This document shows, piece by piece, positions 16,649 through 21,151 of a stretch of DNA of 35,255 nt. The position numbers and the translations under genes were made by a program. Source of the stretch: an uncultured Chitinophagales bacterium. Lineage in GTDB: Bacteria; Bacteroidota; Bacteroidia; Chitinophagales; JAHDHT01. The stretch's first letter is position 1; each line of letters opens with the position of its first letter. Where the stretch lies: the NCBI GenBank assembly GCA_938023075.1, contig CALHDG010000120.1:1-35255 (forward strand), read 5' to 3'. The notes under the pieces were generated by a model. The model did no database searches and was not told the origin of the DNA. It worked only from the letters and a program-made list of their open reading frames with translations.

Positions 16649-18133
16649 TCAAGCCTCCAAGGCATCTTCAATAAACAATTCAGCATGTTTTTGATGGTCA
16701 ATCTGTTTATCTTTACTTAACCGGTTATAGGTATGCACCATCATTGCCATTCTGGGGTTCGATAGAAAAAAGGACTGATGCTTAGAAATGAAACGCCAAA
16801 ACAACCCATCCCAAATGTTTGCCCAATCACCTTTTGGATAGTTGCTCATTTTTTTAATATAATTTGATCCGCCAATATAAGGTTTGGTCGACAGCGTGCC
16901 AGCATCAGCAAATTGACTCATACCATAAACATTGGGAACCATTACCCAATCGTAAGCATCAATAAAAAGCTCCATAAACCAGCGATACACTTCGTTGGGA
17001 TCAAATTCACACAACAACATAAAATTACCTAATATCATTAAGCGTTCTATATGATGACAATAACCCGTTTTCAACACTTTTTTTATGGTATCATCAACCG
17101 GTTCAATACCAGTAGAACCATCATAAAATGAAGCAGGAATTTTACGAGTAAAGTTCCAGAAATTCCGGGTTCTGGAAAACCTGCCTTTGCACACATACAT
17201 CCCTCTAATAAACTCGCGCCAACCAATAATTTGCCGAATAAAGCCCTCCGTAGAATTGATGGGAATGTTTTCTTGCTGAGCAAAATGAATACTCTCATCC
17301 ACTACGGCTTGCGGTAATAATAAGCCAACATTCATTAAGGGTGACAACACGCTGTGGTTTAAAATAAGCTGCTCTTTTACAATGGCATCTTCATAAACAC
17401 CAAAATCAAAAAAGCGGTAAGTTAAAAATTGATTGAACCAATCTTTTGCTTCTTGAGGAGTAATTGGGTAAAACCTTTCGGTAGAAACACTGCCCGGATT
17501 ATCGTTAAAATTGTTTACCGTATAGTCTACCGCCTCATCCCAACAATCGTGTTGTTTTGGAAAATAAACAGCCGGCGGAGTTTTACCTTTCGGGTATTTT
17601 TTGCGGTTTTCGGTATCGTAAGTCCATTTGCCACCAAGCGGTTGGTCGTTGGCTGCTAACAAAATATTGCGCTTTTTCCGTTGCTGTTTGTAAAAGGTAG
17701 TTTGAAAGAAAGATTTTTTGGTTGGTTTAAAAAAGGAAGTGAGTTCTGCTCTCGTATTTAAAAATTGTAGATTTTCATAGATGACCAATTTACAGTTTTT
17801 AGCAGATTGACGAATACGCCGTTCTAACCAATCATCAGTCGGGTCAATTACATGTATTTCATTAAGTTGTTGCAGCTCAATCTCTTTATGGAACAGTCTA
17901 ATATCAGATCGTTCATCAGTTGATTCGATGTAATGAATGGTCTTACCTAAGCCTTCCAAATGTTGTTGATAGGCTTTCATTGTTGCCCGGTGAAACGCAA
18001 TTTTTTGTTGATGAAAACCGTATTGTTTAAAAAATAAATATTCTTCTATCAGATAAATGTCATATTCATTTTGAAGCAACTCACTATCATAAAATAGTTG
18101 ATGTGGAAAAATTAAGTTAACGGCTTTTGTCAT
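16649..18133 (-). CDS. DPRP-type cryptochrome/photolyase lacking the Fe-S cysteines
   Basis: The ATG at 18133 gives a 494-residue protein ([14 protein letters not shown]); a GTG 27 bases upstream is less likely. The family is the deoxyribodipyrimidine photolyase-related group (COG3046, FeS-BCP/PhrB type), which normally binds FAD, a lumazine antenna and a [4Fe-4S] cluster and repairs (6-4) photoproducts. Hallmarks: LIFPHQLF at the start, [18 protein letters not shown] (296-313), [18 protein letters not shown] (357-374) and [14 protein letters not shown] (419-432). In cluster-bearing members the last motif runs into a CxxC and a further Cys; here residues 433-442 read [10 protein letters not shown] and no cysteine follows. 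The upstream ligand site is also non-Cys (about 343-346, IEPV). So the cluster is predicted absent. It overlaps the DUF2256 gene by 17 bp and is the last gene of the operon. Confidence 0.92.
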
Positions 18134-18263
18134 TATTTTTGTTTCGTTTACAGCGTTCACTACAATATTTAACTTGGTCCCAATCTCTTGCCCATTTCTT
18201 ACGCCAATTAAAAGGGCGTTTACAAACTAAGCATATTTTTGATGGCAAGTTACTTTTACGCAT
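18117..18263 (-). CDS. DUF2256 domain small zinc-ribbon-like protein
   Basis: A 48-residue protein starting ATG at 18263: [14 protein letters not shown], then [19 protein letters not shown], then CSERC. Four cysteines (11, 14, 34, 38) are arranged CxxC...CxxxC, which fits a small metal-binding fold. It matches DUF2256 proteins, which are very often encoded next to photolyase/cryptochrome genes. The 3' end overlaps the start of the DPRP photolyase by 17 bp, and it starts 20 bp after the upstream photolyase stop. This points to translational coupling and a role in expression, folding or cofactor delivery for that enzyme. The biochemical function is unknown. Confidence 0.88.
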
Positions 18264-18283
18264 TTGGTTAAAGTTTATATAAA

Positions 18284-19750
18284 TCAACGGCGTTTTTTTA
18301 ACGCCCGGTTTCTGGTATGCAATTTAATAATACGTTGGTTCTCCTGTTTTACAGCGCCTACTTTTCTATGCCCCCAAATTTTATCTCTTGCTTTTTTTCC
18401 GCTGCTTTCCAAATCAACAATAGGCGAAGGATAAGTCATATCAATATGGTTAAACGCTTTATCTAATGCGGTCATCTTCCAGGGTTCGTGAATAAATTGA
18501 ACCGGAACATCTCTCAATTCGGGCACCCATTGTTTAATAAAAATACCTTGAGGATCGTGATCTTTAGATTGCTTCACCGGATTGTACATTCTTATAGTGT
18601 TGATGCCGGTAGTACCCGCTTGCATTTGAAATTGTGGATAATGGATGCCCGGCTCATAGTCTAAAAACAAGTTGGCTAAATGATAAACCCCATCTTTCCA
18701 ATTACAATCAAAATGATGACAAAATACCGATACCAACATAGCTCTCATTCTAAAATTAATCCAACCGGTTTGCTGCAGGCATCGCATACAGGCATCTACT
18801 AACGGAAAACCAGTTTGTCCATTTTTCCAAGCCTCAATTTTTAGTGGATCATTTGCATAAGGCATTAACTCATAACCCCGATTCACGCAACGGGTTTCAT
18901 AATCACATTCTACTTCAAACTTTTGAATAAAATGACAATGCCATTTTAGTCTCGTCAGTAATCCATTAAAACTTCTTTTGTTGTTTGGTTGATTTGGATG
19001 TGTTTTTACAAACTGATAAACTTGGCGGATACTCAAATTGCCCCAAGCCAAATAAGGCGAAATTCGTCCGCAAGACTTCCTGCTTTCTAAAGGCTTCGAA
19101 ATATATCTGCTATAGTTTTTACCTCTATTGTCACAAAAGGATTTCAAATATCTCCAGGCATAAATTTCACCAGCTTGTTGAAATGACTTAGGATAATTCA
19201 TTAGCGCATCAACAAAATCTTTCGGCAAGCAAAAGGGATGCTCGGGTAGTTGAAAACTTCCTTCAGAAAATTGATTAGCAATAGTATCTTTAATCATCTG
19301 AATAAACCACTGCTTATCCCAATTGTTCCGGTTTCGAATGCCTCGTAAAATGCCATCGCGTTGACATTCATACCAACTTATTTGTTGTTGCTTAAAAAAT
19401 TTTGCCACCGCTTTGTCACGTTGCCAAGTTGTTCTAATACCACTTTCTTGATGTGAAAAAACATGATCAATAGAAAATCTGTTATTCAGAAAAGAAAAGA
19501 CTTCAAGGGCTTCTGCATAAAAAATGATCACCTGTCTGTTATAGTTTTTCAGCACTTTGTTCATAGCTAAAATAGAATGATAAACAAACTGCTGATGCCT
19601 TAGAGAACTATCAGGATAAGCCAACATCGATGGTTCAAATAGATAGATTGGTACATACTCATTTGCTTCTTTTTCTGTCAGCAAAAAAGGCTCGTGGTCT
19701 TGCAAGCGAAGGTCGCGTTTTAACCAAACAATATTTATTGGGGCAGGCAT
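18284..19750 (-). CDS. Photolyase/cryptochrome family FAD-binding protein
   Basis: The ATG at 19750 gives 488 residues; an in-frame start 21 bases upstream is possible. An N-terminal alpha/beta antenna domain ([18 protein letters not shown], 5-22) is followed by the helical FAD domain: [30 protein letters not shown] in pieces (211-240), [10 protein letters not shown] (314-323), [14 protein letters not shown] (328-341), [15 protein letters not shown] (354-368), then [15 protein letters not shown] and [12 protein letters not shown]. The segment where canonical CPD photolyases have NGGWQWSAGT reads [11 protein letters not shown] (370-380): the FAD-facing Asn and the proximal Trp are not conserved. 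Repair or signalling function is therefore uncertain. It overlaps the end of the permuted photolyase gene upstream by 16 bp. Confidence 0.9.
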
Positions 19751-20781
19751 GCTTTCAAATCTTTCTTGCATTTTTTCCAGAAGGAGAAAAAAGAAGGATA
19801 ATAGCCGCTAACACTACTCATCCAATCACGTGGTTCTTCATTACCCTTATAATGTTGGTTTAAAGGATGTTCTTTATATATGATTTTGTCAGAATTTATT
19901 TGCTGAGCCAGTTCGTCAAATTCACCAACAAACATCTTACAATTATTAATATTTTTGGAAAGATCAACTACAAAATTAATGCATAGTTGATTGACCGGAT
20001 GCTTTTTAAAAACCGATGGCTCTAACAACAATACGCGTTGCACATCTTCACCTTTATACCAAAAAGGATCAAGGTTGTAATAATTATAAATCAAGGTAGT
20101 TTTATCTTTTTCGAGCTTTGGTTGATCAACATTTGGCAAAGTTGTTTCTAACTCAAAAGCTACTACATGCTTCAATACTTCAGGTATGCTATGATGACCA
20201 AAATGATCATAGTCAACATCAAGAAAGGTATTTTTTTGAGTACTGTGGAAAAATTTATTGATGTTACTTTGATTGGCGTAATATTTTTTATTGGCATTAG
20301 CCCCGGCTACCCATTGCCAACTCAATTGATTACTAGCAAGGTCTCCATCAAACAGATTTGCGTACATCCATTTAGCCGGTTGCAGCCAATGTGCATTTGC
20401 CATATTACAGCAAATGGAGGCAACATACATCCGCATATGATTGTGCATATAACCAGTTTCATAAAGTTGCTTAATGGCTTCATCAACCACTTCAATTTCA
20501 GTACACGCTTCAATAACGGCTTTGGGTACTTGCCGGTTAGCAACAGGCGATTGCGTATTTTTAAGATCGCTGTTTATTGCCGGTCCTTTTGCCCGCCAAA
20601 CTTGCTGCCAATAGTCTCGCCATGCTAATTCTTGTATCAATTTTTCGGCACGATGCCAAGGCAAATCTAACGCAATAACATGTTCGTAAACTTGACGGGT
20701 AGTAATTACCCCTCTCGAAATATAAGGGCTTAAATAAGTAACTGCGCCATCCACATAATTTCGGCTCGAGGCATATTTCAC
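19735..20781 (-). CDS. Photolyase FAD domain protein, apparently circularly permuted
   Basis: GTG at 20781 gives 348 residues, but 19 more in-frame codons upstream (to ATA at 20838, beside the preceding stop TAG) encode FPTDIASILERIQNINP, which fits the family N-terminus; the true start is unresolved. There is no antenna domain at the N-terminus; it opens directly in the FAD domain: [16 protein letters not shown] (11-26), [14 protein letters not shown] (49-62), [14 protein letters not shown] (109-122), [16 protein letters not shown] (132-147) and [12 protein letters not shown] with Asn151 and Trp155 conserved. After residue 225 a Rossmann-like alpha/beta segment appears ([14 protein letters not shown], then [14 protein letters not shown], then [13 protein letters not shown]) that resembles the antenna half-domain. 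That order is the reverse of normal photolyases. It ends in the first codons of the next gene. Confidence 0.88.
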
Positions 20782-20834
20782 CGGATTAATATTTTGTATC
20801 CGCTCTAATATGCTTGCTATATCGGTTGGAAAAT

Positions 20835-21110
20835 CTATCGCTTTGAAATTTTACTGTTTGAAACTTGTCGTTGTCTAGAACATTTAAACCGTTTAATATC
20901 CTCGCTTCTTTTCTTTAAATGTTTTTGGCTAACGCCACTGTTCACCCGTTTTCTCCACAGCTTAAACGAACGCTGTTTAAGTTCTCTTCTCATCAGCTTA
21001 ATTACTGCAGCCTCCGGTAATCCAAATTGAAATTTTATTGCTTCGAAGGGGGTTCTATCTTCCCAAGCCATTTCTATTATTCTATCGGTTTCTTGTTCGG
21101 TCAATTTCAT
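20835..21110 (-). CDS. DUF2805 (TIGR03643 family) small protein
   Basis: The ATG at 21110 gives 91 residues. The N-terminal half is a compact helical domain: LTEQETDRIIEMAWEDRTPF, then FGLPEAAVIKLMRRELKQ, which matches the DUF2805/TIGR03643 family and looks like a helix-turn-helix. The second half is strongly basic (KRVNSGVSQKHLKKRSEDIKR and a Lys/Arg-rich tail), suggesting nucleic-acid contact. Genes of this family are usually found beside photolyases, as here. Its stop codon overlaps the first codons of the permuted photolyase frame, so translation is probably coupled. It is the first gene of the overlapping operon. Its function is unknown; a light-operon accessory or DNA-binding role is inference. 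Confidence 0.88.
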   Translation of the reverse strand: MKLTEQETDRIIEMAWEDRTPFEAIKFQFGLPEAAVIKLMRRELKQRSFKLWRKRVNSGVSQKHLKKRSEDIKRFKCSRQRQVSNSKISKR

Positions 21111-21151
21111 GTAGCTAAGTAACGTAAAATTAATCACTTCAATCGGTTGAT

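Follow-up and report, generated by a model that had tools for sequence, protein, structure and literature searches.

A photolyase with its FAD domain first and an antenna-like domain at its C-terminus in a Bacteroidota-centred clade without Fe-S cysteines

The window analysed here, a stretch of 35,255 nucleotides from an uncultured Chitinophagales bacterium (contig CALHDG010000120.1), carries on its minus strand, at positions 16649-21137, a gene cluster that includes three members of the photolyase family. The gene under study, a short photolyase reading frame in which the FAD domain comes first (19735-20838), lies directly downstream of a gene for a DUF2805/TIGR03643 small protein (20835-21137), with the stop codon of the one overlapping the start of the other. 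It is followed by a classical-order, antenna-first and DASH-like photolyase/cryptochrome paralogue (18284-19771), by a DUF2256 small protein (18117-18287) and by a DPRP-type (prokaryotic 6-4 photolyase-like) paralogue (16649-18160), and one further FAD_binding_7 protein is encoded elsewhere in the genome. Among 91 loci of the family, DUF2256 was found within about 4.5 kb at 60 or more, DPRP at 57 or more, DUF2805 at 54 or more and the DASH-like gene at 30 or more, all of these counts being minima since contig ends interrupt some of the loci. In the accessible literature we found no link between DUF2256 and photolyase. As for the two paralogues, the DASH-like protein groups with its own relatives away from ordinary class I enzymes, on a branch that is long (about 2 changes per column), and the DPRP-type protein appears to be devoid of the Fe-S cysteine pattern, since it reads MSNYPKGDW where Fe-S members of the DPRP group presumably have CxxC.

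The first canonical start codon of the FAD-first frame is the GTG at 20781, which gives the 348-residue protein of the original prediction. The conserved frame begins 19 codons 5' of this GTG, at an ATA (20836-20838) that occupies the conserved start position and overlaps the TAG stop of the upstream gene. Read from there, the frame comprises 367 codons plus a stop, and an in-frame stop lies four codons 5' of the ATA. The additional residues include an FPT motif at positions 3-5 that is kept in the 68-sequence family alignment, with F3 nearly invariant, and because of this conservation they look like genuine protein. In the 367-residue numbering, residues 1-225 (20164-20838) make up the helical FAD-binding catalytic domain with the active-site residues of CPD photolyases, residues 226-246 (20101-20163) a linker, as delimited from the secondary structure of the model, and residues 247-367 (19738-20100) a C-terminal antenna-like alpha/beta domain whose last helix spans approximately residues 350-363.

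As had been predicted, the protein begins directly in its FAD domain. Pfam detected FAD_binding_7 (PF03441) at residues 68-196 (1.9e-22, 80.1 bits against a cut-off of 27), and neither Pfam nor NCBIfam showed anything other than the photolyase FAD domain, with no N-terminal antenna domain ahead of it. The open frame therefore departs from the classical order of class I/III and DASH proteins, in which the antenna domain comes first. The AlphaFold2 model of the full-length protein reached a mean pLDDT of 97.1 and a pTM of 0.93, and residues 1 to about 225 aligned with solved photolyases in VIA-align with Z up to 16.2 and an rmsd of 2.6 Å over 214-219 residues.

We then mapped the active site by HMMER alignment to E. 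coli photolyase (1dnp), whose corresponding residues have well-established roles, and took conservation from the 68 homologues. The equivalents of E. coli E274, W277, R278, N341 and R344 (E70, W73, R74, N133 and R136) and of D372, D374, N378, W382 and W384 (D164, D166, N170, W174 and W176) are invariant in 68/68 sequences. N170 and W174 are the Asn151 and Trp155 that had been pointed out in the SNQLSWQW motif, and their conservation bears that observation out. The equivalents of M345 (M137) and W359 (W151) are kept in 67/68 and 66/68 homologues, respectively, and the distal triad tryptophan W306 is not conserved, the place being taken by V99 or N101. Judged from the sequence, the CPD-photolyase active site is complete and the outer electron path altered; photoreduction may use another path, the distal Trp being unconserved.

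Because this active site is complete, the protein probably acts in the light-driven repair of CPDs. The N-terminal domain would hold FAD, which in its reduced form would most likely be excited by near-UV/blue (blue/UV-A) light. Since the active site is conserved, the excited cofactor would then most likely reduce a flipped-out CPD by electron transfer, the mechanism of class I enzymes. By analogy with NewPHL, single-stranded DNA might be the preferred substrate. In the accessible literature we found no biochemistry on this clade.

Some of these data would also fit a cryptochrome-like protein, FAD-first but no longer active in DNA repair, that serves as a photoreceptor or regulator. The distal Trp is missing, and two photolyase-family genes adjoin while a fourth FAD_binding_7 protein is present in the genome, so that repair by the FAD-first protein could be redundant. 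However, the clade is diverse, and yet the CPD- and FAD-contacting residues examined vary little or not at all within it, the asparagine equivalent to N378 being present in every sequence aligned. We consider such a loss of repair unlikely.

The original prediction also held that the C-terminal alpha/beta segment resembles the antenna domain. AlphaFold2 predicts residues 247-367 as an alpha/beta domain with a mean pLDDT of 97 in the full model and of 95 when folded alone. No solved relative of the C-terminal half emerged from the sequence search, in which every PDB match was confined to the FAD domain, and Foldseek with the domain alone gave no match below 0.001. When Foldseek's 1000 best candidates were re-ranked with VIA-align, the top matches were antenna domains of photolyases and cryptochromes (1owl and 6kii, Z 6.7, rmsd about 4 Å over 121-122 of 128 residues), and the antenna domain of 2ijg, aligned to 41-206, gave Z 6.2 and an rmsd of 3.5 Å. 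A mismatch between the C-terminal 120 residues and the photolyase alpha/beta domain, which would have spoken against the prediction, was thus not what AlphaFold2 and VIA-align returned.

Since VIA-align Z values below 8 can reflect a common arrangement, we also sought evidence from the sequences. Aligned directly with the classical antenna in hhalign, the C-terminal domain gave P values of 0.02-0.05, with a score that was also reached by 4 to 9 of the 150 shuffles. The comparison with the C-terminal domains of Fe-S SPL proteins gave P 2.1e-5 (score 35.9; none of 150 shuffles scored above 17.2), the homology being colinear through the final FWKK helix, and the SPL C-terminal domain matched the classical antenna with P 1.2e-9 (4e-10 with classical sequences only). 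The SPL set consisted of Deinococcus sequences plus a split gene in L134; a first hhalign with four SPL sequences had given no match, and the match appeared after a fifth SPL and two divergent relatives had been included and the domains recut and realigned. Because the domain of the window protein matches the SPL domains and these match the antenna, its link to the classical antenna is transitive but firm. No sequence similarity to the NewPHL Z-domain was detected by hhalign (P 0.24). In the direct alignment, hhalign picked the same register that had been proposed for VLLLEPSVF against the neighbouring photolyase, and a different sequence does replace the classical VWFRRDLRL strand. The C-terminal end of the chain was matched by hhalign with the segment of FTPFWK type that comes after the antenna domain in classical photolyases.

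One may instead propose that the antenna was lost and that an unrelated Rossmann-like domain of the universal-stress-protein/HUP type was separately recruited. Foldseek did return alpha/beta folds, universal stress proteins among them, although their E-values were poor, the universal stress protein 7ji4 attains Z 6.5 against the C-terminal domain, and the direct sequence comparison with the antenna is far from decisive, as given above. Nevertheless, universal stress and HAD-type proteins, although close in Z, align over 82-96 residues against 117-124 for the photolyase antennas, and such a recruitment would not account for the colinear homology to an SPL domain that is itself homologous to the antenna. 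We regard it as distinctly unlikely.

We therefore describe the C-terminal domain, from models and profiles, as a reduced antenna-like alpha/beta domain at the end of the chain, the probable counterpart of the classical N-terminal antenna shifted to the other end. It would most likely cover the FAD side of the catalytic domain, and its role is more likely to be shielding of the FAD site than light harvesting. A circular permutation in the strict sense would require the C-terminal domain to be docked where the classical antenna domain sits. Considering all the above, we find it highly probable that the gene encodes a FAD-first photolyase of the SPL/NewPHL kind, from an Fe-S-free Bacteroidota-centred clade, which likely repairs CPDs and whose C-terminal domain is the relocated antenna.

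Sequence comparisons place the protein in a widespread Bacteroidota-centred clade without Fe-S cysteines, for which we assembled 94 loci, a few pairs of them representing the same genome twice (e.g. L002 and L053). Close relatives at 55-69% identity occur at 80 loci, of which Bacteroidota supply most, while a few bear the label Verrucomicrobiota and one comes from a gammaproteobacterial assembly; related genomes carry members at 41-69% identity. An even draw of Bacteroidota genomes contained a family member in 18/395. With a Deinococcus SPL as query, 17 Bacteroidota genomes gave a match, and in 16 of them the best one was a member of this clade. Among viral contigs and phages we found no full-length relative; the matches to phage records lay inside the FAD domain and covered no more than about 40% of the protein. 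The 68-sequence alignment keeps the full length and the domain order at 39-69% identity, and the homologues scanned have no internal stops. This conservation, together with an ATA start that recurs in many species, cultured isolates among them, contradicts the reading of a degenerate or truncated gene in which the absent antenna and the lack of ATG, GTG or TTG at the conserved start would be signs of decay, and we give that reading almost no credence.

We placed the clade with a FAD-domain tree of 67 rows, calculated by a careful IQ-TREE run; the DPRP outgroup was left out owing to its long branch, and the tree, being unrooted, is silent on which domain order arose first. The window clade (100/99), the NewPHL-like proteins (100/100) and the SPL-like proteins (97/92) each form a single clade, and a branch with 100/100 support has all FAD-first groups at one end and the classical-order proteins at the other. 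The AU test did not reject a union of the window clade with NewPHL (p-AU 0.20), nor one with SPL (p-AU 0.45).

The reversed domain order is real, yet it represents a further branch of a published kind and not the new architecture that had been claimed. NewPHL/Phr7 has an N-terminal FAD domain and a C-terminal Z-domain, and Phr4/Phr5 and Phr6 show a "reverse domain order" with Fe-S cysteines (PMC9426592); an inverted domain topology is likewise described for NewPHL/SPL (PMC13274461). The FAD-first proteins were published in 2020 (NewPHL; Emmerich et al. 2020, NAR 48:12845, as described in PMC9426592 and PMC13274461), 2021 (SPL; attributed to Xu et al. 2021, as cited in PMC9649867) and 2022 (Phr4-Phr6).

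Like SPL and Phr4/Phr5/Phr6, the window protein has its FAD domain first and no N-terminal alpha/beta domain, and with SPL it also shares a homologous C-terminal domain. On the other hand, the SPL proteins compared (Deinococcus L115-L117 and L167, plus L134) have four Fe-S cysteines that are missing from the window clade. The stretch that links strand 4 to the last helix is also shorter in the C-terminal domain of the window protein, and the clade is separate on the tree, although its joining to SPL is tolerated. The four cysteines are reportedly present in only some SPL, so the window clade may already be counted within SPL as originally defined. In two loci, L134 (1061-2853) and L167 (696-1987), the SPL gene is split into a FAD-domain frame and an antenna-domain frame in another reading frame, an arrangement that resembles Phr4/Phr5.

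The likeness to NewPHL/Phr7 lies in the inverted order with the FAD domain first, in the lack of Fe-S cysteines and in an about equal size. The NewPHL-like alphaproteobacterial proteins, which we picked by taxon, length and architecture and not by accession, nonetheless form a clade of their own, and their C-terminal domain, compared by sequence only, has no detectable similarity to that of the window protein. With the class I/III CPD photolyases (1owl, 1dnp, 4u63) the protein shares the fold and active-site residues of the FAD domain, whereas in those enzymes the antenna is N-terminal and they lie on the opposite side of the 100/100 branch. Altogether, the clade extends the inverted photolyases by a branch that is centred on Bacteroidota and free of Fe-S cysteines. 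Taken with the SPL sequences, it indicates that the antenna of inverted photolyases has not gone missing but has moved to become the C-terminal domain, a result that is relevant to the proposed descent of the family from short photolyases.

The start of the gene deserves a separate comment. At 24 of the 94 loci, the window gene included, none of the codons ATG, GTG and TTG occurs close to the conserved start, where the codon reads ATA in 20 cases, ATT in 3 and GTA in 1. In most of the 24 this codon overlaps the stop of the upstream DUF2805 gene as ATAG or ATAA; at some other loci, the same position reads ATGA, GTGA or TTGA. Besides the window gene (20835-20838), ATA occupies the start position at L033, L036, L039, L041, L045, L048, L057, L059-L061, L063, L065, L071, L072, L075, L077, L078, L081 and L082, and at L059 no canonical start occurs before codon 131, which already lies within the catalytic domain. 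Carriers without a canonical start include cultured Cyclobacterium, Brumimicrobium, Hanstruepera and Agaribacillus, and since several are cultured isolates, an assembly error is unlikely to lie behind its absence. The pattern suggests, as its simplest reading, a conserved AUA initiation coupled to termination, and it would also be compatible with frameshifting from DUF2805 into the photolyase frame. The family thereby offers an opportunity to examine whether Bacteroidota initiate translation at AUA.
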